DNA from: Achromobacter ruhlandii
GTDB lineage: Bacteria; Pseudomonadota; Gammaproteobacteria; Burkholderiales; Burkholderiaceae_B
Direction of reading: 5' to 3'
Assembly: GCF_902859695.1 (NCBI RefSeq)
Contig: NZ_CADIJL010000019.1
Span: forward strand, 1 to 64,000
DNA length: 64,000 nucleotides
The notes beneath the pieces were generated by a model. That model made no database searches. It had not been told where the DNA came from and saw nothing but the letters and a program-made list of their open reading frames with translations. Every line of letters begins with the position of its first letter. The stretch's first letter is position 1. Shown here one piece after another: positions 36,003 through 48,908 of this stretch. Position numbers and translations under genes: made by a program.

Positions 36003-36797
36003 ATGTTGGAACTCGACGGCTCGATTTGGTTTCGTTCCGGCGCCCAGAACTGGGGCGGCAGGAACCGCATAGACCTGCTGGCGCAGATCGACGCCACCGG
36101 CTCGATCACGGCCGCCGCGCGCGCGGTTGGCATGAGCTACAAGGGCGCCTGGGATGCCATCGACGCCATGAACAACCTGGCCGGCGAACCGCTGGTGCTG
36201 CGGGCGGCCGGCGGCAAGGGCGGCGGCGGCACGCGCCTGACCGACCGCGCCCGCGGCCTGATCGCGACCTTCCGGGCGCTGGAAGCCGAGCACCGCAGAT
36301 TCATGGAAAACCTGGCGCGCGCCGGCCTGGATGCCAGCGGCGACATTGACCTGATGAGGCGATTCATGCTGAAAACCAGCGCGCGCAACAAGCTCATGGG
36401 CACCGTGATGGAAGTCCGTCCCGGGGCCGTCAACGACGAAATCCGGCTGCGCATCGCTGGCGGCCAGGTCATCACCGCCACCATCACGCGCGAAAGCACG
36501 CAGGAACTGGAGCTGGCTCCCGGCAAGGAAGCGCTGGCGCTGGTCAAGGCCTCGTCGGTCATCGTCGGCGCGCCAGGCGCCGGCCTGCGCCTGTCGGCCC
36601 GCAATCAGCTGGCGGGCACCATCACGGCGGTGCGCACCGGCGCGGTCAACAGCGAGATCCTGATCGGGCTGGAAGGCGGCGCCACGCTGGCCGCCATCGT
36701 CACCAACGATAGCGCGCAGGACCTGGGGTTGGGCGAAGGCGCACCCGCAGTCGCCATTTTCAAGGCATCAAGCGTGATCCTGGGCGTGCTGGACTGA
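36003..36797 (+). CDS. modE: Molybdate-responsive regulator ModE
   Basis: ModE binds molybdate and represses molybdate uptake genes. The 264 residues comprise an N-terminal winged helix (RIDLLAQIDATGSITAAARAVGMSYKGAWDAIDAMN, about 22-57) and two tandem Mop/TOBE domains (about 124-190 and 196-262), each starting SARN and ending KASSVI. The molybdate-contacting SARNKLMG and KASSVIVG motifs are present. It is convergent with modC rather than divergent from modA as in E. coli. Confidence 0.96.
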   Translation: MLELDGSIWFRSGAQNWGGRNRIDLLAQIDATGSITAAARAVGMSYKGAWDAIDAMNNLAGEPLVLRAAGGKGGGGTRLTDRARGLIATFRALEAEHRRFMENLARAGLDASGDIDLMRRFMLKTSARNKLMGTVMEVRPGAVNDEIRLRIAGGQVITATITRESTQELELAPGKEALALVKASSVIVGAPGAGLRLSARNQLAGTITAVRTGAVNSEILIGLEGGATLAAIVTNDSAQDLGLGEGAPAVAIFKASSVILGVLD

Positions 36798-36833
36798 CCG
36801 CGCGCCCACCGGGCGGACACCCGCCCCCGAGCG

Positions 36834-36852
36834 GCCGCCCTGGCGGGGCGGC
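36834..36852. terminator. GC hairpin between convergent modE and modC
   Basis: Arms GCCGCCC and GGGCGGC enclose a five-base loop in the 90-base gap. No T-run on either strand, so terminator function is a guess from position. Confidence 0.35.
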
Positions 36853-36887
36853 TATGACATCCACGCGCGGCACGCCGCCCCTGTCCG

Positions 36888-37574
36888 TCAGAGCCCGACA
36901 TCCTCATCGCGGCGGCGCACCTTGCCGTCGCGCAGCTCGAACACTTCATCGGCCAGCGCCTCGACGTCGGCCGGGTCGTGCGTGATCAGCAGCATCGGCA
37001 CGTCCAGCTGGCGCTGCAACGTATCCAGTTCCTGGCGCATCTTGCCGCGCAGTTGCGAGTCGAGCGCCGAAAATGGTTCGTCCAGCAGCAGAATCTCCGG
37101 CTTGAGCATCAGCGCGCGCGCCAGGGCCACGCGCTGCTTCTGGCCGCCCGAGATCTCGTGCGGATAGCTGCCCAGGATCGCGCCCAGCTCGAAGGCGTCG
37201 ACCCAGCGCCGCGCCTCGGCCGACACGGCCCGCCGCGGCGGATTGCGCCAGCCGCGGCGCGAGCCGAAGGCGATGTTCTGCGCCACCGTCAGATGCGGGA
37301 ACAATGCGTAGTCCTGGAACAGGTAGGCCACGCGGCGGGCCTGCGGCGCGACGCTCAGGCGCGCGTCGGAATCGAACAGCACCCGGCCGTTGATCTCGAT
37401 GCGGCCGGCGTCCGGCCGCAGCAGGCCGGCCACCGCCCGCAGCGTCAGGCTCTTGCCGGCGCCCGACGGGCCGAACAGCGCGATGCGCTTGGACTTGGAC
37501 GAGAACGCCACGTCCAGGGAAAAGTGACGCTCACCCGACACCATGTTCTTGCGTATGCGCAGATCGACGCTCAT
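36888..37574 (-). CDS. modC: Molybdate ABC transporter ATP-binding protein, short form
   Basis: ModC powers molybdate import. The 228 residues give one complete ABC domain: Walker A GPSGAGKS (about 35-42), Q-loop YLFQDYALFPHL, signature SGGQKQRVALARAL, Walker B ILLLDEP and ITHDPADVE. The C-terminal TOBE domain of E. coli ModC (352 residues) is absent, so molybdate sensing by the transporter through that domain is lost. Its ATG overlaps the modB stop (ATGA). Confidence 0.93.
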   Translation of the reverse strand: MSVDLRIRKNMVSGERHFSLDVAFSSKSKRIALFGPSGAGKSLTLRAVAGLLRPDAGRIEINGRVLFDSDARLSVAPQARRVAYLFQDYALFPHLTVAQNIAFGSRRGWRNPPRRAVSAEARRWVDAFELGAILGSYPHEISGGQKQRVALARALMLKPEILLLDEPFSALDSQLRGKMRQELDTLQRQLDVPMLLITHDPADVEALADEVFELRDGKVRRRDEDVGL

Positions 37575-38254
37575 CGCCCGCCTCCGCGCCGGCTGGAACG
37601 GATCGGCACCAGCCTGCCCGCCGCCAGCAGCACCACGATGCAGGTGATGGACGTGACCAGCACCAGGAAATTGGCGGTGGCGTCGTCGCCCGCCTGCACC
37701 GCCTCGTAGATGGCGACCGACAGCGTCTGGGTGCGGCCCGGCAGGTTGCCGGCGATCATCAGGGTGGCGCCGAACTCGCCCAGCGCGCGGGCGAAGGCCA
37801 GCAGCACGCCGGCCACGATGCCGCGCGCCGCCAGCGGCAAGGTCACGCGAAAGAACACGCCGACCTCGCGCACGCCCAGCACGCGGGCCGCGCTTTCCAA
37901 TTGGGGATCGACGTTTTCGAAGGCGGCGCGGGCCGACTTGAACACCAGCGGAAAGGCCACCACCGACGCGGCGATGACCGCGCCCTGCCAGGTGAACACC
38001 AGTTCAATGCCCAGCGCCGCCAGCTTCTCGCCCAGCACGCCGCGCCGTCCCAGCAGCACCAGCAGGTAATAACCCAGCACCGTGGGCGGCAGCACCAGCG
38101 GCAGGGTCAGGACGGCATCCAGCAGGTCGCGGCCCGGCCAGCGCCAGCGCGACAGGCCATAGGCGGCCGCGGTGCCGGCCACGGCGGCCAGCAGCGTTGC
38201 CCAGCCCGCCACTTTCAGGGTAAGCAGCAGGGGCACCCATACCGGATCACTCAT
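37571..38254 (-). CDS. modB: Molybdate ABC transporter permease
   Basis: The inner-membrane channel of the molybdate transporter. The 227-residue protein has about five helices and the EAA loop ESAARVLGVREVGVFFRVTLP that docks on ModC, followed by AFARALGEFGATLMIAGN, typical of ModB. A GTG one codon upstream is possible; the ATG at 38252-38254 is given. It follows modA after 31 bases and overlaps modC by 4. Confidence 0.95.
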   Translation of the reverse strand: MSDPVWVPLLLTLKVAGWATLLAAVAGTAAAYGLSRWRWPGRDLLDAVLTLPLVLPPTVLGYYLLVLLGRRGVLGEKLAALGIELVFTWQGAVIAASVVAFPLVFKSARAAFENVDPQLESAARVLGVREVGVFFRVTLPLAARGIVAGVLLAFARALGEFGATLMIAGNLPGRTQTLSVAIYEAVQAGDDATANFLVLVTSITCIVVLLAAGRLVPIRSSRRGGGR

Positions 38255-38285
38255 CACAGACCGCGTGGGCTACCCGCCCGCGTCC

Positions 38286-39044
38286 TCAAGGCTTCTGGAA
38301 GCCGTAGCGTGACAGGATTTCCTGTCCGGCGGGCGACATCACGTAGGCCACGAAGCGCTTGGCTTCCTGGGCGGCGGCATCGCGCGCCGTCACGGCGATG
38401 GGATAGGTGACCGGTGTCTGCGACGGCACGCGCACCGCCACCTTGACCTTGTCCGGCATGATTGCCGCGTCGGTGGCGAACACGAAGCCCGCGTCCACTT
38501 CGCCGCGCGACACGTAGTCCAGGCTCTGGCGCACGTTCTGCGCCAGCACGCTCTTGGCCTGCACCGCGTCCCACAGGCCGGCGGCCTGCAGCGCGCCCTG
38601 CGTGTAGCGGCCCACCGGCACCGAGGCCGGGTTGCCGTAGGCGATGCGCTTGATGTCGTCGCGCGTCAGGTCCTTGAGCGCGGTGATGTTGGCCTTGCTG
38701 TCGGTCGGCACGATCAGCACGACCTGGTTGGCGGCGAAATCCACCCGCGATTCGGGCTTGACGGCCTTTTCCTCGACGGCCTTGTCCATCGCCTTCTGGT
38801 CGGCGGACGCGAACACGTCGGCGGGCGCGCCCTTGACGATCTGCTGCAGCAGCACGTCGGAAGCGCCGAAGTTCAGGATGACCTTGGTGCCGGCATGCTC
38901 CTTCTCGTACGCCTGGGCCACGTCCTTGAACGCGTTGGTCAGGCTGGCGGCGGCGGACACGACCAGGTCGCCGGCGTGGGCGCTGGGGGCCCAGGCGGCG
39001 GCGAGGGCCAGCGACAGCGCCAGGACCGGGTGTTTGCGGAACAT
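38286..39044 (-). CDS. modA: Molybdate-binding periplasmic protein
   Basis: ModA captures molybdate or tungstate in the periplasm. The 252-residue protein has a signal peptide (cleavage after APSAHA, about residue 24) and the family motifs VSAAASLTNAF (Ser contacts), NFGASDVLLQQI, GAPADVFASAD and GEVDAGFVFATDA. The ATG at 39042-39044 follows GAGGAG; the upstream in-frame codon at 39068 lies between it and the ModE operator. First gene of modABC. Confidence 0.96.
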   Translation of the reverse strand: MFRKHPVLALSLALAAAWAPSAHAGDLVVSAAASLTNAFKDVAQAYEKEHAGTKVILNFGASDVLLQQIVKGAPADVFASADQKAMDKAVEEKAVKPESRVDFAANQVVLIVPTDSKANITALKDLTRDDIKRIAYGNPASVPVGRYTQGALQAAGLWDAVQAKSVLAQNVRQSLDYVSRGEVDAGFVFATDAAIMPDKVKVAVRVPSQTPVTYPIAVTARDAAAQEAKRFVAYVMSPAGQEILSRYGFQKP

Positions 39045-39077
39045 GTATCTCTCCTCGGACAAGATCAATCTCGGTGA

Positions 39078-39170: not shown

Positions 39171-39521
39171 TCAGCCGCGGTCGACCGTGGTGACGCGCAC
39201 CGTGTCGGGGGCCAGCGCGGCCCGCAGCCGCTCGAGCGCCAGTTCGGGCCGGGCGGCCCCGCACATGAAGATGTCCAGCGCCGCGAACCGGTGCTCCGGC
39301 CAGGAATGCACGCTGATGTGCGATTCGCTCAGCATGACCACGCCCGTCACGCCCGCGCCTTCGCCGAAATGGTGGAAGTGGGCGCCCAGCACGCGCGCGC
39401 CGGCGGCCTCGGCGGCCCCCAGCAGCTCGCGCTCGAGCGCCTGGGCGTCGGCCAGCAGGCCGGCGTCCACGCCACGGAAGTCGGCCAGGATGTGGCGGCC
39501 GGGCGTCGCGTGCGGCGTCAC
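39171..39521 (-). CDS. speD: S-adenosylmethionine decarboxylase, short prokaryotic type
   Basis: SpeD self-cleaves to form a pyruvoyl group and makes decarboxylated AdoMet, the aminopropyl donor. The 116-residue protein is the short form seen in Bacillus and Thermotoga: LSESHISVHSWPE contains the cleavage site Glu66-Ser67 and His68, and LDIFMCG the catalytic Cys87. The GTG at 39519-39521 overlaps the stop of the preceding small gene (GTGA), and no other in-frame start fits. It closes an operon of membrane-associated genes rather than sitting with speE of ordinary spermidine synthesis. Confidence 0.92.
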   Translation of the reverse strand: MTPHATPGRHILADFRGVDAGLLADAQALERELLGAAEAAGARVLGAHFHHFGEGAGVTGVVMLSESHISVHSWPEHRFAALDIFMCGAARPELALERLRAALAPDTVRVTTVDRG

Positions 39522-39688
39522 TTGTGCGATCCGCCCGACGACCAGCCCGAGCTGCCCGACGATCCGCCGCCCCAACTGCTGCTGCTGCCGCCGCTGCCAC
39601 CGCTGGTGAAGCGGGCGCCGGGCGAGCTGGCGCCGGTGGCTGCGATGACCACGATCAGGGCGTAGATGGCGTAGAAGAACTTGCCCAT
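39518..39688 (-). CDS. 56-residue membrane peptide with Gly/Ser-rich tail
   Basis: A small gene easily missed by length cut-offs. The product begins MGKFFYAIYALIVVIAATGA, one hydrophobic segment (about 3-20) that could be a signal peptide or membrane anchor, and continues as an almost pure Gly/Ser/Trp tail (GGSGGSSSSWGGGSSGSSGW) ending in SHK. It fits tightly between the DUF4178 gene (3-base gap) and speD (4-base GTGA overlap), which argues strongly that it is translated. Function unknown. Confidence 0.75.
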   Translation of the reverse strand: MGKFFYAIYALIVVIAATGASSPGARFTSGGSGGSSSSWGGGSSGSSGWSSGGSHK

Positions 39689-39691
39689 GCC

Positions 39692-41161
39692 TCAGTCGTC
39701 CTTTGCCGACATCTTGTCCGCGAGGCTGGCCGGCAGCCACAGGAAGGCCAGGCCGATCAGGATCGGCAGGATGCGGCCGCTGAAGATGTTGCCCAAGTTG
39801 AGGAATCCCATGGCGATGGTGGCGAACCAGGCCCATTTGCGATAACCGCCCAGCGAGGCCGAGCGCGGCATCGCCTTCTGCCTGGCCAGTTCGGGATTGT
39901 CGAACCACTGGGCCAGTTGCGCCGGCGCCACCGGCGCAGCGGCCGACCAGCCCACCTCGGCCGGCCCCTGTTCGCGGGTGAGCTTGAGGTTGCCGGCCTT
40001 GTAGTCGGTGATCTTGGTGCTGTCGCCGACCCTGACGCGCCAGTTGAAGGCGCCCAGCGCCAGGTCGACGCGCGAGGTGTAGTCGTACAGCTTCTGGTAC
40101 AGCTTGGAGCGCCAGCGCACGCTGGTGGCGTTGTTGTAGCTGGGCCAGGTATCGCAGACCTGCACGCGCTCCCAGCCCTCGTCCGTCTCCACCAGCCAGA
40201 TGAAGCCCTTGGCGGGGTTGAACAACAGGTATTCGATCCAGTCCGAGGGCTCTTCGGGATCCGGATCGGCGCATTTCATCAGGCCGATCAGGGTGTAGGC
40301 GGCGCCATCGATCTTGGCGGTGGCGCCCAGCGCCAGCGTGGTCTTGATGGCGTTGATCTTGCGCGCCTTGCCGATGACTTCGGCGGTCTCGCCGGCGCAG
40401 TCGACCGTGGCCGCGCACGACGGGCACACCACCTGCGTCGCCATGGCGGCGACGAAGCTGATCGGCGCGCCGCAGCTGGGGCAGTCCAGGGCCTTGATCT
40501 GGCCGCGGAAGCGCCCGGCGGTTTCCTCGACCTGTTCGTTCGAACGCAGCGTCGCCGCCTGCATGCCCGACAGGTCGAAGGCCTTGCCGATGTAGAGCTC
40601 GGGTTCGGGACCATCGGAGAAGTCCAGCGTCAGGAACGCATCCAGGCTGCGGAAATCGGCCACCTTGGCTTCCCAGCCATCGCCCGGCACGAACGGCAGT
40701 TCCCCCTGCGCGCCGCCAGCGCGGCAGCGCCGCACGTCGGAAGCCGTGAAGCGCTGGCCGTCCAGCTTCATGTCGTCGCCGGGCGAGATGTCGGCGAAGG
40801 CCGGCAGGCCCTGCACCGTCTTGACCTTGCGGCGGCGGGTAATGGCGTACTGGCCGGAGGCGTCCGACAGCCAGCCGTCCGAGCCGTCATCGAACCACAG
40901 GTACCACTCGTTCCAGAAGCCGTCCTCGTAGCGCAGCTGGATGCGGCCGATCAGGTCGAAGCGCTTGCCCTCGAACTGGCCGGCGGCGCCCAGGCACAGC
41001 GGCGAATAGTCTTCCAGGACATCGGCGGTCTCGCCGATGCGCTTGACCGACTCGGCGTCCTTGAGCAGCGTGCTGCGGCAGGCGCCGCAGACCGCCATGA
41101 CCGATGCCGTGGAAGTGAACTTGACGGGTGCTCCGCACTGCGGACACAGGACCTGCTGCAT
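39692..41161 (-). CDS. Double DUF4178 protein with two zinc ribbons and C-terminal membrane segments
   Basis: The 489 residues are an internal duplication. Each half starts with a zinc ribbon (CPQCGAP...CGAC at 6-29; CPSCGAP...CPSC at about 226-249) followed by a DUF4178 domain (DYSPLCLGAAGQFEGKRFDLIGRIQ; TTLALGATAKIDGAAYTLIGLM, each leading to a W-rich strand such as WYLWFDDG or WIEYLLF). The last ~55 residues hold two hydrophobic helices (WAWFATIAMGFLNLG; ILPILIGLAFLWLP), so it is membrane attached. The biochemical role of DUF4178 is not known. It lies in an operon with SPFH, DUF350 and SpeD proteins. Confidence 0.88.
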   Translation of the reverse strand: MQQVLCPQCGAPVKFTSTASVMAVCGACRSTLLKDAESVKRIGETADVLEDYSPLCLGAAGQFEGKRFDLIGRIQLRYEDGFWNEWYLWFDDGSDGWLSDASGQYAITRRRKVKTVQGLPAFADISPGDDMKLDGQRFTASDVRRCRAGGAQGELPFVPGDGWEAKVADFRSLDAFLTLDFSDGPEPELYIGKAFDLSGMQAATLRSNEQVEETAGRFRGQIKALDCPSCGAPISFVAAMATQVVCPSCAATVDCAGETAEVIGKARKINAIKTTLALGATAKIDGAAYTLIGLMKCADPDPEEPSDWIEYLLFNPAKGFIWLVETDEGWERVQVCDTWPSYNNATSVRWRSKLYQKLYDYTSRVDLALGAFNWRVRVGDSTKITDYKAGNLKLTREQGPAEVGWSAAAPVAPAQLAQWFDNPELARQKAMPRSASLGGYRKWAWFATIAMGFLNLGNIFSGRILPILIGLAFLWLPASLADKMSAKDD

Positions 41162-41174
41162 GGGCGGGCGGCGC

Positions 41175-42215
41175 TCAGCTGGTGAGTTTCTTCAGGACTT
41201 CGGCCTTGGCCGCGTCGTAGTCGGCCGGCGTGATCAGGCCCTTGTCGAGCAGGTCCTTGAGCTGCTGCAGGCGCTGCACCGGGTCGGCGCCCGAAGCGGC
41301 CGCCGCGCCCGCGGCCGTGCCAGCTGCCGCCTGGGCGCCGGCCGCCGGTTGCCCCGCGGCCACGCCCAGTCCGGCCGCCATGGTCTGGCCCAGCGCCGCG
41401 CCGGCCGCCAGGCCCGCGCCGATGCCGGCGATGCCGCCTTCGTTCTGCGCCGCCAGTGGGATCGAGGTGGCGGTCTGGTACTGGGTGAACTTGCCCAGGT
41501 CGCCCGCCATGCCCATCGAGATCCGCGTGTCCAGCGCCTTCTGCAGTTCTTCCGGCAGCGACACGTTCTCGACCGTGAAGTTGTCGAGCTTGACGCCATA
41601 GCGCTCGAACACCGGGCCGAGCTGTTCGCCGATGCTCTGCGACATCAGGCCCTGGTTGCCGGCGATGTCCAGGAACGGCACCTTGGAGCCGCCCAGCGCG
41701 GTGGTCATGGCCGCGACCACCATGTTGCGCAACTGCGCTTCCAGGTCATCGACGGTGTAGACGTCGCGCGTGCCGCTGATCTCGCGGTAGAACTTGGCCG
41801 GATCGGTGATCTGGTACGAATACACGCCGAAGGCGCGCAGCCGCACCATGCCGAATTCGCTGTCGCGCAGCGTCACCGGCTGCGCCGTGCCCCAGCGCCG
41901 GCCCAGTTGCAGGCGGGTGCTGAAGAAGATCACGTCCGACTTGAAGGGCGACTCGAACAGCTTGTCCCAGTTCTTCAGGTACGTCAGCACCGGCAGCGTC
42001 TGGGTGGTCAGCTTGTACATGCCGGGGCCGAACACGTCGGCCACCTTGCCTTCGTTGACGAACACCGCCATCTGCGACTCGCGCACGGTCAGGCTGGCGC
42101 CGTACTGGATTTCGAAATCCTGCATCGGGTGGCGCCAGGCCAGCACGCCGTCGCCGTCCTCGTTCCATTGCAGGATGTCGATGAACTGTTTGCGGATAAA
42201 TGAACCGAGACTCAT
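41175..42215 (-). CDS. SPFH/band-7 domain protein with C-terminal SHOCT domain
   Basis: The 346-residue protein resembles the YdjI/virion-core group: SLGSFIRKQFIDILQW start, SPFH domain (about 20-245; VRESQMAVFVNEGKVADVFGPG, RLRAFGVYSYQITDP), an Ala/Gly-rich hinge (about 255-310) and a SHOCT module at the end (DPVQRLQQLKDLLDKGLITP). SPFH proteins form ring scaffolds on membranes; SHOCT modules mediate oligomerisation or contact. Thirteen bases separate it from the DUF4178 gene, so they are co-transcribed. Confidence 0.9.
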   Translation of the reverse strand: MSLGSFIRKQFIDILQWNEDGDGVLAWRHPMQDFEIQYGASLTVRESQMAVFVNEGKVADVFGPGMYKLTTQTLPVLTYLKNWDKLFESPFKSDVIFFSTRLQLGRRWGTAQPVTLRDSEFGMVRLRAFGVYSYQITDPAKFYREISGTRDVYTVDDLEAQLRNMVVAAMTTALGGSKVPFLDIAGNQGLMSQSIGEQLGPVFERYGVKLDNFTVENVSLPEELQKALDTRISMGMAGDLGKFTQYQTATSIPLAAQNEGGIAGIGAGLAAGAALGQTMAAGLGVAAGQPAAGAQAAAGTAAGAAAASGADPVQRLQQLKDLLDKGLITPADYDAAKAEVLKKLTS

Positions 42216-42258
42216 GGCTAGTTCTCCTGTGTCAGAGATGGGTCGACGCGCGGGCCGC

Positions 42259-42657
42259 TCAGGTCAGGCAGGCGGCGTTGACCACGCCGGCGGCCAGCGA
42301 GATCGAACCGATCAGGCCGCCCATGGCGATGTTGTTTTCCTCGATGGCCTCGTGCAGGCCCTGGATGGCGCGCGACACGACGGCATAGACGACCAGTTGC
42401 ACCACCATGGCGGCCACGCCCCAGACCAGGAACATGACGAAGCTCGCATGGATGGCGATGCTGGAGCAGAGCGTGAACGAAAAACCGACCAACGCGCCGC
42501 TGTATGAGAGCACCGCGGCAATGTTGCCCTGGCGGATCAGTTCGAATTCCTTGTAGCGCGTCACCGTGGTGTAGACGGCGGTGAAAATGCCCAGCATGAC
42601 CAGCGCCGAAACAATGTAGATCAGATAGGTCACCGCCGGATGCATCGCTTCTCCCAT
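42259..42657 (-). CDS. DUF350 membrane protein (YjfL-like)
   Basis: A 132-residue protein with four predicted helices (about 11-31, 45-66, 70-92, 110-130) and the DUF350 pattern with a central polar EENNIAMGGLIGSISLAAG motif. The role of the family is unknown; it occurs next to polyamine-modifying and PspA or SPFH proteins in other bacteria, as I recall. GGAGG stands 6 bases before the ATG at 42655-42657. First gene of the leftward operon. Confidence 0.88.
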   Translation of the reverse strand: MGEAMHPAVTYLIYIVSALVMLGIFTAVYTTVTRYKEFELIRQGNIAAVLSYSGALVGFSFTLCSSIAIHASFVMFLVWGVAAMVVQLVVYAVVSRAIQGLHEAIEENNIAMGGLIGSISLAAGVVNAACLT

Positions 42658-42683
42658 AATCGCCCCTCCAGGCCCTGATTGCG

Positions 42684-42715
42684 CGCAGTATATACGCCGC
42701 CTTCGATATACTGCG
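42684..42715. promoter_or_regulatory. Symmetric divergent promoter/operator of the polyamine-membrane system
   Basis: Perfect 10-bp arms CGCAGTATAT (42684-42693) and ATATACTGCG (42706-42715) are separated by 12 bases, centre to centre 22 bases (two helical turns). Each arm holds a TATACT -10 (5 of 6) for its own direction: minus strand 42687-42692 for the DUF350 operon, plus strand 42707-42712 for the aminopropyltransferase operon. The -35 region of each promoter falls on the -10 of the other. Confidence 0.7.
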
Positions 42716-42741
42716 AACGCATTTTTCGAGTCGGAACCCTC

Positions 42742-44253
42742 ATGCGCGACCGCGTCCTCATCCTGTCGGTATTGATCGTCGCTTCCTGCGGCCTGGGCTA
42801 CGAGCTCATCAGCAGCGCGCTGGCCAGCTATCTGCTGGGCGATTCCATCCTCCAGTTCTCGTCCGTCATCGGCTGCTATCTGTTCGCGATGGGCATCGGA
42901 TCGTGGTTGTCAAAATATGTAAGAGACGACGACGTTTTGAATCGATTCATCGACGTCGAACTGGCCGTCGCCTTGCTGGGCGGGGTTTCCGCCGCGGTCC
43001 TGTTCCTGGTGTTCGCCTGGCTGTCGGCGCCGTTTCGCGCGGCGCTGTACGCGGGCGTCTTCATCATCGGACTGATGGTCGGCATGGAGATCCCGCTGGT
43101 GATGCGCGTCTTCAACCAGCGCAAGGCCGAGTTCCGCGAGATCGTCAGCCGCGTGCTGACTTTCGATTATCTCGGCGCGCTGGCCGTGTCGCTGATCTTT
43201 CCGCTGCTGCTGGCGCCCAAGCTGGGCCTGCTGCGCACCAGTTTCCTGTTCGGCATGCTCAACGCCGGCGTGGCGCTGTGGACCACCTGGCTGTTCCGCG
43301 GCGAGATCCGGCGCCCTGCCGAACGTGCCATACGCGGCGGCGTGGTGCTGGGGCTGCTGGCGCTGGGCTTCCTGTTTTCCGGCCAGATGACGGCCTGGGC
43401 CGAGAAGGGCCTGTACGGCGACGACGTGGTGCACGCCGAGACCACGCCCTACCAGCGCCTGATCGTGACGCGCTGGCACGACGACCTGCGGCTGTACATC
43501 AACGGCAACCTGCAATTCTCGTCGCGCGACGAACACCGTTACCACGAGTCGCTGGTGATCCCGGGCCTGCAGGCCCTGCCCTGGGCCCGCAACGTACTGG
43601 TGCTGGGCGGCGGTGACGGCCTGGCGGTGCGCGAGATCCTCAAATTCAAGCACGTTGAGCGTGTCACGCTGGTGGACCTGGACCCGGCCATGACCGGCCT
43701 GTTCTCGCGCTCCGAACCGTTGACGAAACTGAATCAGGGCTCGCTGACCGATCCGCGCGTCACCGTCATCAACGACGACGCCGGCCGCTGGCTCGAAAGC
43801 CACGCCGAGGTCTACGACTTCATCGTGGTGGACTTTCCGGATCCGTCCAACTTCGGCCTGGGCCGGCTGTACTCGGTGCCGGTCTACCACCTGATGGCGC
43901 GGCACCTGGCCGAGAACGGCTACATGGTGATCCAGTCGACCTCGCCCTACTTCGCGCCGCGCTCGTTCTGGAGCGTGGACTCCACGCTCAAGGAAGCCGG
44001 CCTGAACACCTGGCCGTACCACGCCTACGTGCCGTCGTTCGGCGACTGGGGCTTCATCCTGGCCGGCAAGCGCCGCGACTACACGCCGCCGGACGCCGTC
44101 ACCGTGCCGACCCGCTACCTCGATCCGGCCACGCTGCGCGAGCTGTTCCACTTTCCCGCCGACATGCCGGCGCTGGCCATGCCGCCGAACCGCCTGAACG
44201 AACAATCGCTCGTGCGGTACTTCGACGAGGACTGGCGCAAGGTCATCCGCTGA
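42742..44253 (+). CDS. Membrane-embedded spermidine-synthase-like aminopropyltransferase
   Basis: The N-terminal ~215 residues form about seven helices (from VLILSVLIVASCGLGYEL onward) and the C-terminal ~285 residues are a spermidine-synthase domain: INGNLQFSSRDEHRYHESL, VLVLGGGDGLAVREILK (decarboxylated-AdoMet site), VTLVDLDPAM, NDDAGRWLE and VVDFPDPSNFGLGRLYS (amine-side Asp). Such enzymes transfer aminopropyl groups to an amine; the fused membrane part suggests a substrate at or across the membrane. The ATG at 42742 follows GGAA. It is divergent from the SpeD operon and overlaps the next gene (TGATG). Confidence 0.9.
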   Translation: MRDRVLILSVLIVASCGLGYELISSALASYLLGDSILQFSSVIGCYLFAMGIGSWLSKYVRDDDVLNRFIDVELAVALLGGVSAAVLFLVFAWLSAPFRAALYAGVFIIGLMVGMEIPLVMRVFNQRKAEFREIVSRVLTFDYLGALAVSLIFPLLLAPKLGLLRTSFLFGMLNAGVALWTTWLFRGEIRRPAERAIRGGVVLGLLALGFLFSGQMTAWAEKGLYGDDVVHAETTPYQRLIVTRWHDDLRLYINGNLQFSSRDEHRYHESLVIPGLQALPWARNVLVLGGGDGLAVREILKFKHVERVTLVDLDPAMTGLFSRSEPLTKLNQGSLTDPRVTVINDDAGRWLESHAEVYDFIVVDFPDPSNFGLGRLYSVPVYHLMARHLAENGYMVIQSTSPYFAPRSFWSVDSTLKEAGLNTWPYHAYVPSFGDWGFILAGKRRDYTPPDAVTVPTRYLDPATLRELFHFPADMPALAMPPNRLNEQSLVRYFDEDWRKVIR

Positions 44254-45890
44254 TGCGGCGCCGCACCTTCCTGCTGGGCGTCGCCACCGCCGCCGCCGCC
44301 GGCACGGCGGGTTACTACCGTTCACGCGTGGTCGAGACCACGCCCGAGGTGCGCTACCCGGGCATGCAGGCCGGTCACGCGCTGCGCGATGGCGCGGCGC
44401 TGCCGCCGTCGGCCGGCGCCCGCCGCTGCCAGGTGGCGATCCTGGGGTCCGGCGTGGCCGGCCTGTCGTGCGCCTGGAAACTAGCGCGCGAAGGCTTCAC
44501 CGATTTCGTCGTGGTCCAAGGCCCCGAGTACGGCGGCAACGCCGCCGCCGGCGCCCGCGACGGGCTCGACTACCCGCTCGGCGCGCACTACCTGCCGCTG
44601 CCGTCGATGCAGTCCACCCACGTGCGCGAGATGCTGGCCGATTTCGGCATCGCCGAGCGCGACGCCTTCGGCGAGCGGCCCTATTACGACGAGGCCATCC
44701 TGGCGCACTCGCCGCAGGAACGGCTGCTGCGCGACGGCCGCTGGGAAGACGGTCTCTTGCCGATGCACGGGCTGCCCGAGGCCGATCTCGAACAGCACCG
44801 CAAGTTCCTGGCGCTGGTGGACCGGCTGCACGGCGCGATCGGCAACGACGGCCGCAAGGTCTTCTGCATCCCGATCGTGCTGTCCTCGCGCGACCCTGTC
44901 TGGCGCGCGCTGGACGCGCTCACATTCAAGCAGTGGCTGGACCGCGAAGGCTACACCTCCCCCGCCCTGCACTGGTACCTGAACTACTGCTGCCGCGACG
45001 ACTACGGCGCGCCCTACGACCGGGTCTCGGCCTGGGCCGGGCTGCACTACTTCGCCAGCCGCGACGGCCATGCCGCCAACGCCGCCGAGGGCGCGGTGCT
45101 GACCTGGCCCGGCGGCCTGGCGCCGCTGGTGCAACGGCTGCGCAACGCCATCAGCGCCCGTCTCGGCCATGAGGGCTGGCTGCTGCCCGGGACCGCCGCG
45201 CGGTTGCAGGAAAGCGCGGCCGGCCCGCGCATCGATTGCCTGGCGCCGGGGCCCGCCGCCCGCGTCTTTACGCTGCAAGCGCAACGCGCGGTCTGCGCCA
45301 TGCCGCTGTTCGTGGCCCAGCGCCTGCTGCCCGACATCCGCGCCTACGGTTACGATCCGGCCGCGCATGCGTCGCCGCACGCGCCCTGGCTGGTGTCGAA
45401 CTTCGTCATGGACGGCTATCCGCGCGAAGCGCCGGGCGAACCGCTATCGTGGGACAACGTGGTCTACCAGGGCCAGGCGCTGGGCTACGTGGTCTCGACC
45501 CACCAATTGCTGCGCGTGGCGCGTTCGCCGCGCACGGTGTTCACCGCCTACCATGCCCTCAGCAACCAGACGCCACAGGCCGCGCGGCAATGGCTCGCCG
45601 AGGCCCGCCCCGAGGCGCTGCGCGACGAGGCCGCCGCCGACCTGGTCGCCGCCTATGGCGACGAGTTCTGGCGTCGCGCCCGGCAGTTGGAGATCACGGT
45701 GCGCGGCCATGCCATGGCCTCGCCCTATTGCGGCTATCTATCGAACGCCGGCCTGGCGGCGTTGCGCGAGGTGGACGGCCCGGTGCTGTTCGCCCATGCC
45801 GACCTGTCCGGCTATTCGGTGTTCGAAGAAGCCGCGTGGTGGGGCGTGGCGGCGGCCGGCCGCATCCTGGGGCAGCGGCCGCCGGCGTGA
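44253..45890 (+). CDS. Tat-exported FAD-dependent amine-oxidase-like protein
   Basis: The 545-residue protein starts with a twin-arginine signal (RRRTFLLGVATAAAAGTAG), so it is exported folded with its cofactor. A dinucleotide-binding fold follows (VAILGSGVAGLSCAWKLAREG, about 63-83) with GGNAAAG near the flavin, and a C-terminal FAD closing stretch (GPVLFAHADLSGYSVFEEAAWWG). The fold is that of flavin amine oxidases/polyamine oxidases. It shares a base with the aminopropyltransferase stop, so the two are made together, which suggests that it oxidises the product or a related polyamine. Confidence 0.85.
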   Translation: MRRRTFLLGVATAAAAGTAGYYRSRVVETTPEVRYPGMQAGHALRDGAALPPSAGARRCQVAILGSGVAGLSCAWKLAREGFTDFVVVQGPEYGGNAAAGARDGLDYPLGAHYLPLPSMQSTHVREMLADFGIAERDAFGERPYYDEAILAHSPQERLLRDGRWEDGLLPMHGLPEADLEQHRKFLALVDRLHGAIGNDGRKVFCIPIVLSSRDPVWRALDALTFKQWLDREGYTSPALHWYLNYCCRDDYGAPYDRVSAWAGLHYFASRDGHAANAAEGAVLTWPGGLAPLVQRLRNAISARLGHEGWLLPGTAARLQESAAGPRIDCLAPGPAARVFTLQAQRAVCAMPLFVAQRLLPDIRAYGYDPAAHASPHAPWLVSNFVMDGYPREAPGEPLSWDNVVYQGQALGYVVSTHQLLRVARSPRTVFTAYHALSNQTPQAARQWLAEARPEALRDEAAADLVAAYGDEFWRRARQLEITVRGHAMASPYCGYLSNAGLAALREVDGPVLFAHADLSGYSVFEEAAWWGVAAAGRILGQRPPA

Positions 45891-46027: not shown

Positions 46028-47278
46028 ATGGGAAAGCAAGTCATAGTGCTCGGCGCCGGCATCGTCGGCGTCTGCTGCGCGCTGGAACTGCAGCGGCGCG
46101 GCATGCAGGTCACCCTGGTCGACCGCCAGGATCCCGGCCGGGAAACCTCATCCGGCAACGCCGGCGTCCTGGCCCGCAGCTCCCTCATGCCCTTCAACCA
46201 TCCCGGCCTGTGGCGCCAGTTGCCCCGGCTGCTGCGCAACGACACCGTCCAATTCCGCTACCGCGCCGCGTACCTGGCCCGCAACCTGGGCTGGGCGGCG
46301 GGCTTCCTGGCGCGCGCCCGGCCGTCGGTGTTCGGCGAAACCACGGCGGCGCTCGACGGCCTGATCCGGCGCTCCGCCGCCGAACACCTGCGCCTGCTGG
46401 ACGCGGCCGGCGCGCGCCACCGCCTGCGCGACAGCGGCTGGATCTTCCTGTTCCGCAGCGAACAGGCGTGGCAGGGCGGCGCCCTGGCGCGCGAGGCCTA
46501 CGCCCGCCACCAGGTGCCGACCCAGGCGCTGGCCCCGGCCGAACTGGCGCAACTGGAGCCGGCCCTGGCGCCGATCTTCCCGCGCGCGCTGTGGATCCAG
46601 GGTTCCTATTCGGTGGACGATCCCGGCGCCGTGACCACGGCCTACGCCGACCTGTTCCAGCGCTCGGGCGGCGTCTTCCGCACACTGCGGGCCGCCGCCA
46701 TCCGCCGCGATGGCGGACGTGGCTGGATCGTGCAAGGCGACGCCGGCACGGAAACGCTGACGGCGCCCGACCTGGTGGTGGCGCTGGGCCCGTGGTCCAA
46801 GGCCCTGCTCAAGACCACCGGCATCGACCTGCCGCTGGCGTTCGAGCGCGGCTATCACATGCATTACGGCGCCGCCGGCGGCCCGGCGCTGGGCCGCCCC
46901 ATCTACGACACCGGCGGCGGCTACGTGCTGTCGCCGATGGCGCGCGGTCTGCGGCTGACCACCGGCGTCGAGCTGGACGACTGCGACGCGCCTGCCCGTC
47001 CCATCCAGTTGGACCTGGCGGAAACCCGGGCGCGCGAGGCCATCGACCTGGGCGAGCGGCTGGACCCGCGGGCCTGGCTCGGCCGCCGCCCGACGCTGCC
47101 GGACAGCCGCCCGATGATCGGCCAGGCGCCGCGCCATCCCGGCCTGTGGCTGGCGCTGGGCCACCAGCACATCGGTTTCAGCACGGCGCCCGGCACCGCG
47201 CAGATACTAGGGGAATTGATGACCGACGGCGACGCCACCGGCCGCCACGACGCCTTCCGTCCGGGACGATTCCTCTAG
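46028..47278 (+). CDS. dadA: D-amino-acid dehydrogenase (DadA-like FAD oxidoreductase)
   Basis: DadA-type flavoproteins deaminate D-amino acids at the inner membrane face and pass electrons to the respiratory chain. The 416-residue protein has the FAD motif VIVLGAGIVGVCCALELQRRG (5-25), ETSSGNAGVL and the C-terminal GHQHIGFSTAPGTAQILGEL. Typical length for the family. TACAAT at 45971-45976 may be its -10. It precedes an Asp/Glu racemase by 28 bases; together they could convert and use D-amino acids. The exact substrate is not readable. Confidence 0.87.
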   Translation: MGKQVIVLGAGIVGVCCALELQRRGMQVTLVDRQDPGRETSSGNAGVLARSSLMPFNHPGLWRQLPRLLRNDTVQFRYRAAYLARNLGWAAGFLARARPSVFGETTAALDGLIRRSAAEHLRLLDAAGARHRLRDSGWIFLFRSEQAWQGGALAREAYARHQVPTQALAPAELAQLEPALAPIFPRALWIQGSYSVDDPGAVTTAYADLFQRSGGVFRTLRAAAIRRDGGRGWIVQGDAGTETLTAPDLVVALGPWSKALLKTTGIDLPLAFERGYHMHYGAAGGPALGRPIYDTGGGYVLSPMARGLRLTTGVELDDCDAPARPIQLDLAETRAREAIDLGERLDPRAWLGRRPTLPDSRPMIGQAPRHPGLWLALGHQHIGFSTAPGTAQILGELMTDGDATGRHDAFRPGRFL

Positions 47279-47306
47279 GGCGTATCGACATTCACGGGAG
47301 CCTCGC

Positions 47307-48011
47307 GTGGCCACGAACGATGCAACTCTGCCAGCCGCGCCCGCGGCCCCAGGCGCCTTTCTCGGCCTGCTGATGCTGGACACGCGCTTTCCGCGCCCGC
47401 CCGGCGACGTCGGCAACCCCGAGACCTACGCCCGCGCCGGCATCCCGGCGCGCTTCGTCACGGTGCCGGGCGCCTCGCCGCGCAAGATCGTGCAGGAAGC
47501 CGACCCGGCCTTCCTGCGGCCGTTCATCGATGCCGCCGTGGGTCTGGCGCGCGACGGCGCGGCGCTGATCTCCACCAGTTGCGGTTTCCTGGCGCGCTAC
47601 CAGGACGCCTTGCAGGCCGCCGTGCCGGTGCCAGTCGTGTCGTCCAGCCTGCTGCAATGCCATGGCCTGGCGCGGGTGGGCATCGTCACCTTCGATGCGG
47701 CCTCGCTCGATCGCGCCTTGCAGGATGCGGCCGGCGTGCCCGCCAACGCCGTGGTCGAAGGCCTGGCGCCCGGCTGCGAGATGCAGGCGCGCATCCTGGA
47801 AAACGCGCCGGACATGGATCTGGCGCGGGTCGAACGCGACGTGGTCGAGGCGGCCGAACGGCTGGCGCGGCGCGCCCCGGACCTGACCGACATCGTGCTC
47901 GAATGCACCAACATGCCGCCCTACCGCGAGGCCGTGGCGCGCGCCACCGGCCTGCCAGTGCACGACATCGAGACGCTGCTGCTGCGCAGCTGGCGCGCGC
48001 TGGCGGCCTGA
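47307..48011 (+). CDS. Aspartate/glutamate racemase family protein
   Basis: A 234-residue protein of the cofactor-free Asp/Glu/hydantoin racemase superfamily. The two catalytic Cys positions are present: STSCGFLARYQ (about residue 92) and LECTNMPPYRE (about 199). The start is a GTG at 47307 behind GGGAG. It may be co-transcribed with the D-amino-acid dehydrogenase upstream. Members without biochemical data are common, so the substrate stays open. Confidence 0.85.
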   Translation: MATNDATLPAAPAAPGAFLGLLMLDTRFPRPPGDVGNPETYARAGIPARFVTVPGASPRKIVQEADPAFLRPFIDAAVGLARDGAALISTSCGFLARYQDALQAAVPVPVVSSSLLQCHGLARVGIVTFDAASLDRALQDAAGVPANAVVEGLAPGCEMQARILENAPDMDLARVERDVVEAAERLARRAPDLTDIVLECTNMPPYREAVARATGLPVHDIETLLLRSWRALAA

Positions 48012-48044
48012 CCGCCAATCCGCGCGGGCGCCGCGCGCCGGCAT

Positions 48045-48083
48045 GAAAAAACCCGGCGTGATCCCGAGGGATCCGCGCCGGGT
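48045..48083 (-). terminator. Rho-independent terminator of the ABC operon
   Basis: On the minus strand an outer stem ACCCGGCG/CGCCGGGT and inner stem GATCCC/GGGATC form a long hairpin followed by TTTTTT (plus-strand A-run 48046-48050 plus flanking A). It lies 31 bases after the ATPase stop. Confidence 0.9.
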
Positions 48084-48113
48084 CTTGCGCCTGGCGGCTT
48101 CCGGAGCGTCCGT

Positions 48114-48908
48114 TCAGCCCAGCAGCAAGGCGTCGTCCGACAGCTTCTCGCCGCGCACGCGCTCGAACATGGCCAGCAGGTCGGGCACGTCCATGCCGCG
48201 GCGTTCATCGCCGGACACGTCCAGCACCACCTGGCCCTGGTGCAGCATCACCGTGCGGTCGCCCACGTCCAGCGCCTGGCGCATGCTGTGCGTGACCATC
48301 ATGGTGGTCAGCTTGCTTTCGGCCACGATGCGCGCCGTCAGTTGCAGCACGAAGTCGGCGGTGCGCGGGTCGAGCGCGGCGGTGTGTTCGTCCAGCAGCA
48401 GGATGCGCGACGGCTGCAGCGCCGCCATCAGCAGGCTCACGGCCTGGCGCTGGCCGCCCGAGAGCAGGCCGATGCGGTCGGTCAGGCGGTTTTCCAGGCC
48501 CAGGCCGAGCGTGGCCAGGCGTTCGCGGAAACCTTCCTTCATCGAGGCCTTGACCGCGCGGCCATAGCCACGGCGCGCGCCGCGCAACTGCGCCAGCGCC
48601 ATGTTCTCTTCGATGGTCAGGTCTTCGCAGGTGCCAGCCATCGGATCCTGGAACACGCGCGCCACGCGCGAGGCGCGGGCCCAGACCGGCTGGCGCGTGA
48701 CGTCGGCGCCGTCGATCTCGATGCGGCCGGAATCGACCGGCAGGTCGCCCGACACGGCATTCAGGAAGGTCGACTTGCCCGCGCCGTTGGAGCCGATGAC
48801 GGTGACGAACTGGCCCGACGGGATGTCCAGCGACAGCCCGCGCAGCGCCCGCGTCTCGATCGGCGTGCCGGCGTTGAAAGTGATCTTGAGGTCTTTTGCG
48901 GACAACAT
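48114..48908 (-). CDS. ABC transporter ATP-binding protein (TrpXYZ/COG1101-like)
   Basis: A 264-residue ABC ATPase: Walker A GSNGAGKS (about 39-46), signature LSGGQRQAVSLLMAAL, Walker B ILLLDEH with the Ala/Leu following, and VTHSMRQALDVGDR. The HTAALDPRTADFVLQLT and VTHSMRQAL patterns match the group that pairs with COG4120 permeases and COG2984 binding proteins, some of which take up tryptophan or other aromatic amino acids. It directly follows the permease gene. Confidence 0.9.
   Translation of the reverse strand: MLSAKDLKITFNAGTPIETRALRGLSLDIPSGQFVTVIGSNGAGKSTFLNAVSGDLPVDSGRIEIDGADVTRQPVWARASRVARVFQDPMAGTCEDLTIEENMALAQLRGARRGYGRAVKASMKEGFRERLATLGLGLENRLTDRIGLLSGGQRQAVSLLMAALQPSRILLLDEHTAALDPRTADFVLQLTARIVAESKLTTMMVTHSMRQALDVGDRTVMLHQGQVVLDVSGDERRGMDVPDLLAMFERVRGEKLSDDALLLG

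Follow-up and report, generated by a model that had tools for sequence, protein, structure and literature searches.

The window analysed here is a 64,000-nucleotide stretch of Achromobacter ruhlandii DNA (contig NZ_CADIJL010000019.1, positions 1 to 64,000), and the system in question is a cluster of seven genes within it that pairs an S-adenosylmethionine (AdoMet) decarboxylase, SpeD, with a seven-helix membrane protein carrying a spermidine-synthase-like domain (7TM-SpeE). The other five genes encode a DUF350 membrane protein, an SPFH/Band-7 protein with a SHOCT domain, a DUF4178 protein, a small Gly/Ser-rich membrane peptide and an amine-oxidase-like flavoprotein (Table 1). We propose, with confidence poised about evenly for and against, that this cluster may attach an aminopropyl group to the C-terminal lysine of its own membrane-tethered peptide at the outer face of the inner membrane. 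The proposal is built on sequence comparison and structure prediction. Such a lysine tag would be new for bacterial proteins.

The evidence that carries this proposal is the ending of the peptide. The sequence-only reading had listed a Gly/Ser peptide, which is present, but missed its invariant terminal lysine, the most telling part of the cluster. We surveyed tails in 100 annotated loci (20 stretches and the best 80 GTDB loci), 71 of which contain a DUF4178 match above 150 bits. The slot peptide, encoded by a small open reading frame (ORF) that separates DUF4178 from the next gene and specifies one hydrophobic segment, was chosen by position, strand, length and hydrophobicity only, blind to its ending and with DUF350-like ORFs left out. 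It was present in 56 of the 71 DUF4178 loci, and all 56 peptides end in lysine (39 HK, 16 GK and one IK). In 11 further loci the DUF4178 protein itself is extended by a membrane segment followed by a Gly/Ser/Tyr tail that ends in HK, with one or three predicted membrane segments where the count is clear. The peptides of the last four loci lie below the hydrophobicity cut; recovered with a looser filter, they too are lysine-ended. Overall, a lysine-ended tail was found in 71 of 71 DUF4178 loci (60 peptides and 11 fused tails; 51 HK, 19 GK and one IK). As controls, 306 of 6,691 unannotated small ORFs (4.6%) end in lysine, 75 of them in HK or GK, and so do seven of 339 other cluster proteins. The terminal lysine is the only lysine within the last 20 residues in 62 of the 71 tails.

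We considered whether the lysine might be forced by a start/stop overlap (AAGTGA or AAATGA) and rejected this explanation: only 37 of the 71 tails could overlap in that way. The lysine codon is followed by TGA, TAA or TAG, all three being seen across the 71 tails, and gene overlap therefore does not force the terminal lysine. In the window, the stop codon of the peptide occupies positions 39518-39520, the lysine codon 39521-39523 and the histidine codon 39524-39526; the 55-residue peptide has no match above cut-off to any family in Pfam or NCBIfam. With better than about even confidence, we regard the tail as a core part of the system. Within the literature searched, both the tail with its terminal lysine and its match to the chemistry of the enzyme are new. 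In five of the DUF4178 fusions (L042, L043, L122, L130 and L139), several cysteines occupy the stretch that leads from the membrane segment to the Gly/Ser tail, a pattern that would suit disulfide bonding outside.

Lysine-ended tails also occur on other carriers. The 29 loci without a strong DUF4178 match were searched for lysine-ended membrane proteins with a Gly/Ser/Arg-type tail within 4 kb, and 11 contain one, in PspA-type or related clusters (PspA was confirmed in five of the five tested among them). The short carriers are transmembrane proteins of 79-100 residues that end in GSGK, HGGK or RGGK and lie directly upstream of SpeE; the long carriers, of 311-576 residues, end in RRGK, FGGK or RSGK. 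Of the six long carriers read, which include one on an Alteromonas plasmid, five begin with a lipobox, and the tails of these five should accordingly lie outside the cytoplasm. Six tail carriers gave no family match above the Pfam cut-off. Full-length 7TM-SpeE is found on 12 plasmid records, and the six records read all have a lysine-ended tail (five ending in HK or GK, that of Tritonibacter in VK); a seventh region, from Rhodovulum, matches only part of SpeE and is left out of this count. On an Alteromonas plasmid (L177:7944-14602), the cluster includes a gene annotated as 'toxic anion resistance protein' and a 510-residue lipoprotein-like protein bearing the lysine tail.

The strongest indirect argument for lysine as the acceptor is a comparison with Escherichia coli. 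The DUF350 protein YjfL adjoins YjfM, whose tail ends in RGHWGG, and YjfC, which is annotated as a peptide--spermidine ligase; YgiB, with the tail end RSMGG, adjoins YgiC, which bears the same annotation. Both tails are of the Gly/Ser/Arg type and end in GG. In the 200 Pseudomonadota genomes of our first conservation survey, the family of YgiB and YjfM (DUF1190) is represented by 25 loci, of which 24 were readable: 15 end in GG, two in GS, two in SS and none in lysine, and the other five look weak or out of frame. Ligases act on a carboxylate and aminopropyltransferases on an amine, and the last residue of the tail follows the type of enzyme. The E. coli clusters yjfIJKLMC and ygiBC resemble the window in combining a membrane or lipoprotein Gly/Ser/Arg-rich tail with a polyamine-to-peptide enzyme, and yjf also includes DUF350. 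They differ in that the E. coli tails end in GG and are served by an ATP-grasp ligase that uses the carboxylate, whereas the window tail ends in HK and its enzyme is an aminopropyltransferase; the seven window proteins gave no ATP-grasp match in Pfam. The reference for the E. coli ligases is reportedly Pederick et al. (2023).

The enzyme itself is a spermidine synthase fold on a membrane domain. In the AlphaFold2 model of 7TM-SpeE (73 sequences; predicted local distance difference test (pLDDT) 89.5, predicted template modelling score 0.72), the SpeE fold comes after seven long helices and a short one, with the membrane domain at approximately residues 2-211 and the aminopropyltransferase domain at approximately 228-503. 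The best 50 of 1,621 Foldseek matches were SpeE-type structures only, including 1uir. Fold and donor-site residues are those of soluble SpeE (1uir, 1iy9 and 2o06), which lacks the membrane domain and differs in its acceptor-side residues and gene partners. The GGGDG donor site is kept, and Q238, Y267, H268, D292, D314, D346, D364 and D367 are present in 100 of 100 7TM-SpeE proteins (the window and 99 loci). On the acceptor side, the gatekeeper position is P366 in all 100 (threonine in soluble enzymes), F433 is likewise invariant (soluble, tyrosine), and position 400, which we take to be an acceptor-side residue, is threonine in 99 of 100 (soluble, mostly glutamate or glycine). Apart from that of position 400, residue roles were assigned from passages of PMC4356361 by our own matching. 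Together with the membrane domain, these changes set 7TM-SpeE apart from the canonical soluble spermidine synthase. The SpeE pocket is narrow, and a protein acceptor would therefore have to enter it by its end; a flexible Gly/Ser tail that finishes in lysine is what would be expected of such an acceptor.

Alternatively, 7TM-SpeE could aminopropylate a small molecule or a lipid head group, with the lysine tail serving only to bind the enzyme or the product, for docking or sensing. The soluble relatives of SpeE act on small amines, the presence of DUF350, SPFH and DUF4178 points to a membrane scaffold, and the kept residues D364 and D367 correspond, by our residue matching, to aspartates that bind the amine in a passage on Plasmodium SpeE (PMC4356361). 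A docking motif, however, need not be the very last residue on several carriers, the acceptor-side residues are shifted, and the E. coli tails of the sister system end in GG, matching a carboxylate-using ligase. We consider this explanation unlikely. The sequence-only reading had supposed that an amine is aminopropylated at the membrane: the membrane site fits, while the invariant lysine suggests a protein tail rather than a free amine as the acceptor.

The side of the membrane on which the SpeE domain lies can be predicted from its helices. All 100 aligned proteins have seven hydrophobic segments, and the mean number of lysines and arginines is 9.5 for loops 2-3, 4-5 and 6-7 and 2.2 for loops 1-2, 3-4 and 5-6, the former being ahead in 100 of 100. 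With seven helices and the positive loops inside, the SpeE domain, which follows helix 7, is predicted to be periplasmic. The share of cysteine is 0.25% in the 7TM-SpeE core as against 1.43% in 28 reads of soluble SpeE (one of them only two residues long). In this arrangement, the tail, the SpeE domain and the oxidase would share one compartment. These observations bear on a rival in which a cytosolic SpeE domain aminopropylates the tail lysine ahead of export. Such an order would suit the decarboxylated AdoMet (dcAdoMet) donor, which is cytosolic, and the annotated peptide-spermidine ligases of E. coli, ATP-grasp enzymes that should act in the cytosol. It conflicts with the positive-inside rule across the seven helices in every protein aligned and with the low cysteine content of the SpeE domain, and we regard it as decidedly improbable.

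The proposed reaction on the periplasmic lysine would begin in the cytosol, where SpeD, to judge from its intact active site, would decarboxylate AdoMet. Aligned to Thermotoga maritima 1vr7, SpeD keeps the SESH motif with the pyruvoyl serine as well as the catalytic histidine and cysteine, and it is the sole AdoMet_dc match detected in the genome. It also retains the WP of bona fide AdoMet decarboxylases, whose proline separates them from arginine decarboxylases; with this pattern kept, a role as an ornithine or arginine decarboxylase of the kind described in PMC10407285 is unlikely (the proline was chosen from the figure legend of that paper). In what is the weakest step, dcAdoMet would cross the membrane via the seven-helix domain or DUF350. 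There, the SpeE domain, predicted to be periplasmic, would place the aminopropyl group on the epsilon-amine of the terminal lysine of the tail. Since the side chain of lysine is itself an aminobutyl group, resembling half of putrescine, the product would be a covalently tethered, spermidine-like side chain. SPFH-SHOCT and DUF4178 may form a membrane scaffold that holds the tail; the Tat (twin-arginine translocation) amine oxidase in the same compartment may oxidise the tag, thereby removing or editing it. The role of the system is likely to be envelope charge control or stress sensing. Our confidence in the oxidase step and in dcAdoMet transport is lower than that in lysine aminopropylation.

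The oxidase was previously read as exported and amine-oxidase-like, and both parts are upheld at the level of prediction. It contains the GxGxxG motif for flavin adenine dinucleotide (FAD), and simple patterns place RR close to the N-terminus in 42 of 50 relatives and find a lipobox in 12. Its AlphaFold2 model (pLDDT 92) matched putrescine oxidase (2yg3) best in Foldseek, followed by protoporphyrinogen oxidase, a bacterial monoamine oxidase and, at rank 20, spermidine dehydrogenase SpdH; TM-scores against monoamine-oxidase-like folds were ~0.6 normalised on the model and 0.7 on the targets, at 15-19% identity. By fold the protein is amine-oxidase-like, which does not by itself establish an amine as its substrate. 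A putrescine oxidase as best match, a bacterial monoamine oxidase among the best and the predicted export would also suit an enzyme that acts on the tail lysine in the manner of lysyl oxidase and yields an aldehyde for cross-linking, the aminopropyl product being a separate matter. PspA-type clusters, however, keep the lysine tail with no oxidase in their annotated neighbourhoods, and it is 7TM-SpeE that stays as the constant partner, which makes this explanation highly doubtful; the oxidase is therefore not core.

Several observations weigh against aminopropylation of the tail lysine in the periplasm. The donor dcAdoMet is cytosolic and we know of no exporter for it, which means that an unproven transport step would have to supply a periplasmic SpeE domain. 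Sidedness rests on prediction: the cysteine signal is mild, 47 of the SpeE-domain cysteines fall in one column, and by a rough count the predicted-exported oxidases themselves contain ~1% cysteine, which makes cysteine depletion weak as a strict marker of side. The balance of lysine and arginine gives the short peptides no clear side (84 before and 79 after the core). By analogy with the ATP-dependent E. coli ligase, modification of the tail could already take place in the cytosol, ahead of its export. In fold, the oxidase is about as close to protoporphyrinogen oxidase as to amine oxidases, and, as noted above, it was not seen in the annotated PspA-type neighbourhoods. Only the 56 slot peptides were found blind; the fused, rescued, PspA-type, plasmid and split-genome tails were found via their lysine ending. 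Finally, 18 of the 100 loci have no tail near 7TM-SpeE, lysine-ended ORFs in three of them (L054, L079 and L049) having been judged by eye not to be tails. Ten of these 18 genomes were searched for DUF4178, which is present elsewhere in nine; at the distant DUF4178 locus, a lysine-ended tail was found in eight of the nine, which speaks for the proposal, and none was found in the ninth.

The gene set is conserved well beyond Achromobacter. In the 200 Pseudomonadota genomes, with 7TM-SpeE counted when over its cut-off, 7TM-SpeE was found in 22 and DUF4178 in 13, all 13 within the 22 (P = 5.6e-15); in 12 of these 13 genomes the two genes share a contig and are separated by a few kb. Neither the mutual exclusion of DUF1190 and 7TM-SpeE (22 genomes each of 200, none shared; P = 0.066) nor the low overlap of 7TM-SpeE with soluble SpeE (one of 22 genomes; P = 0.15) was significant. 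A second survey, of GTDB species genomes, confirmed at least 544 relatives, of which the best 80 loci were used; partners were counted in the 56 loci with at least 6 kb upstream and at least 2.5 kb downstream, using profiles grown from the window's own proteins, which may miss distant partners. Near 7TM-SpeE, DUF4178 was found in 48 loci, the oxidase in 46, DUF350 in 41, SpeD in 40 and Band-7 in 38; all five were present in 31 of the 56 and none in six. The genes thus stay together across phyla, the outcome for which the sequence-only reading had proposed a co-occurrence check. Tail-bearing loci span at least seven phyla: Proteobacteria, Acidobacteria, Gemmatimonadetes, Bacteroidota (Solitalea), Spirochaetota (Leptospiraceae), Fibrobacteres and Verrucomicrobiota. 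Both enzyme and tail were read in Novosphingobium resinovorum SA1, and the enzyme is also on record for Cupriavidus necator. Apparent 7TM-SpeE/oxidase fusions (ORFs of more than 1000 residues) were dismissed as alternate-frame read-ins ahead of the oxidase start. In many loci, among them L099:8758-8973, L123:3094-3309 and L179:7703-7912, the DUF350-like gene before 7TM-SpeE encodes only ~70 residues, half the form in the window, and the two-helix unit of DUF350 seems to come singly, in pairs or in larger numbers. A family of membrane proteins of ~360 residues adjoins the cluster in seven loci (L105, L115, L123, L127, L132, L134 and L141).

An ordinary spermidine pathway with a membrane-anchored SpeE is very improbable, in line with the earlier view that spermidine supply is not the role of the cluster. 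SpeD and the donor site are intact, and an OKR_DC-type ornithine/lysine/arginine decarboxylase on another contig could supply putrescine. Against such a pathway stand the frequent partnership of SPFH, DUF350, DUF4178, the oxidase and the tail, the changed acceptor side, and work by Li et al. in 2019, according to which fusions of this kind reportedly do not make spermidine and do not complement an E. coli SpeE deletion. The genome contains no canonical SpeE: no protein reaches the TIGR00417 cut-off, the second Spermine_synth match scoring 53 bits. The earlier claim that ornithine and arginine decarboxylases are missing is true of the cluster only, given the OKR_DC protein and two Orn_Arg_deC_N matches in the genome.

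We give almost no credence to an anti-phage defence system, a role that had been suggested earlier. Membrane proteins in a compact cluster would be compatible with one, and the SpeE-type domain matches mad2 of PADLOC at 1e-14. That match, however, concerns the SpeE-type domain only, the one other PADLOC hit is a weak FAD-domain match (C3a186, 0.00035), and the cluster is broadly conserved in one order.

Clusters of this type have been noticed before. Li et al. (2019, Biochem J 476:2579) are said to have described a polyamine-independent AdoMet decarboxylase in clusters with DUF350 and a fusion of a major facilitator superfamily domain to spermidine synthase (MFS-SpdSyn), and to have proposed a role outside spermidine synthesis with the acceptor unnamed. 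Those clusters and the window share SpeD, a membrane-fused SpeE-like enzyme and DUF350; the window adds SPFH-SHOCT, the double DUF4178 protein, the Tat oxidase and the lysine-ended tail as proposed acceptor. A 2024 survey of phage-shock systems (mSystems 2024, PMC11237479) lists 7TM-SpeE operons, so the cluster as such is not new. In its passages on related operon groups it names 7TM-SpeE, DUF350, DUF4178, Band-7 with SHOCT, AdoMet decarboxylase and a polyamine oxidase, mentions 'aminopropylation of other substrates', calls one small protein (Ctha_1186) a novel lipoprotein and cites Li et al. 2019. The word 'lysine' is absent from its main text, and its passages on these operons propose no acceptor. 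As in the PspA/CesT and Band-7 polyamine operons described in those passages, the window has a 7TM domain fused to SpeE, DUF350 and DUF4178. The operon type of the survey includes a CesT/Tir-PspA pair or, in a variant, Band-7 with a two-helix (2TM) part and SHOCT; by Pfam, none of the seven window proteins is PspA and a Band-7 protein with SHOCT is present.

Precedents for the chemistry come from eukaryotes. A passage in a 2018 review (PMC6302742) suggests that it may be worthwhile to ask whether aminopropyl modifications of proteins exist. In the passages concerned, the silaffin lysines of diatoms bear aminopropyl units (PMC4557024), and hypusine in eIF5A carries an aminobutyl group on the lysine epsilon-amine (PMC12270671). 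Both share with our proposal the alkylation of a lysine epsilon-amine; they are eukaryotic and involve internal lysines and other enzymes, whereas the proposed acceptor is a bacterial C-terminal lysine on a membrane tail. Among the matches listed, searches that placed most subscription papers outside their reach returned nothing on the tail when combining DUF350, DUF4178 and SPFH, DUF350 and spermidine synthase, or C-terminal lysine and aminopropyltransferase, and nothing on aminopropyl-lysine; PMC10433244, at first taken as relevant, concerns DUF3509.

Table 1. The polyamine-linked cluster of the A. ruhlandii window, in order of position.
Feature	Position	Strand	Evidence
SpeD, class 1b AdoMet decarboxylase proenzyme, 116 residues	39171..39521	-	TIGR03330 2e-34 (query with one extra N-terminal residue), AdoMet_dc 2.5e-34
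Single-transmembrane Gly/Ser tail peptide, 55 residues, end ...GGSHK	39518..39688	-	sequence read
Double DUF4178 protein	39692..41161	-	PF13785 6.8e-25, two stretches
SPFH/Band-7 protein with C-terminal SHOCT	41175..42215	-	PF13421 (Band_7_1) 4.9e-75, PF09851 (SHOCT) 1.8e-07
DUF350 membrane protein	42259..42657	-	PF03994 8.8e-31
Divergent intergenic region, 84 bases, presumed shared promoter	42658..42741	.	coordinates
7TM-SpeE	42742..44253	+	NF002956, Spermine_synth 2.3e-31, AlphaFold2 model, Foldseek
FAD amine-oxidase-like protein, predicted Tat export, start MRRRTFLLG	44253..45890	+	NAD_binding_8 2.5e-11, Amino_oxidase 6.6e-05 (weaker)

All seven genes were confirmed with the order, strands and spacing first described, as two tightly packed, divergent operons. 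On the minus strand, gaps of 43, 13 and 3 bases separate DUF350 from Band-7, Band-7 from DUF4178 and DUF4178 from the peptide, and the stop of the peptide shares a GTGA overlap with SpeD; 7TM-SpeE and the oxidase share a TGATG overlap. The start of 7TM-SpeE is the ATG at 42742, where the ORF list instead begins at a TTG at 42679. The protein scores 696 bits against NF002956, 'polyamine aminopropyltransferase' (cut-off 472), and is 98-99% identical to proteins of Achromobacter xylosoxidans. The DUF4178 protein has CxxC zinc-ribbon-like motifs and, by eye, a C-terminal hydrophobic hairpin. The neighbouring genes were likewise read by eye: those at 36003-39068, adjoining the cluster, resemble a molybdate ABC operon (ModE-, ModC-, ModB- and ModA-like), and those at 46031-48908, downstream of the oxidase, encode a second FAD protein resembling D-amino acid dehydrogenase, a racemase-like protein and an ABC transporter ATPase.

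More broadly, we tentatively suggest, with somewhat less than even confidence, that in at least seven phyla a periplasmic membrane aminopropyltransferase may grow a polyamine on the C-terminal lysine of tails dedicated to this use and tethered to the membrane, with dcAdoMet exported and the exported oxidase editing the product, and that together with the GG tails and ligases of E. coli these would make up a broader class of membrane tails that are tipped with polyamines and linked to the SPFH and PspA machinery of membrane stress. The acceptor of membrane aminopropyltransferases has reportedly been open since an AdoMet decarboxylase was tied to a non-polyamine role (Li 2019). With the invariant terminal lysine, the search for it narrows to one candidate acceptor at a defined residue with a defined mass shift, and a single proteomics experiment could test it. 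If the proposal is true, it would add a new protein modification to bacterial biology, would explain why DUF350, SPFH and PspA travel with polyamine genes, and would unite them with the E. coli spermidine ligases.

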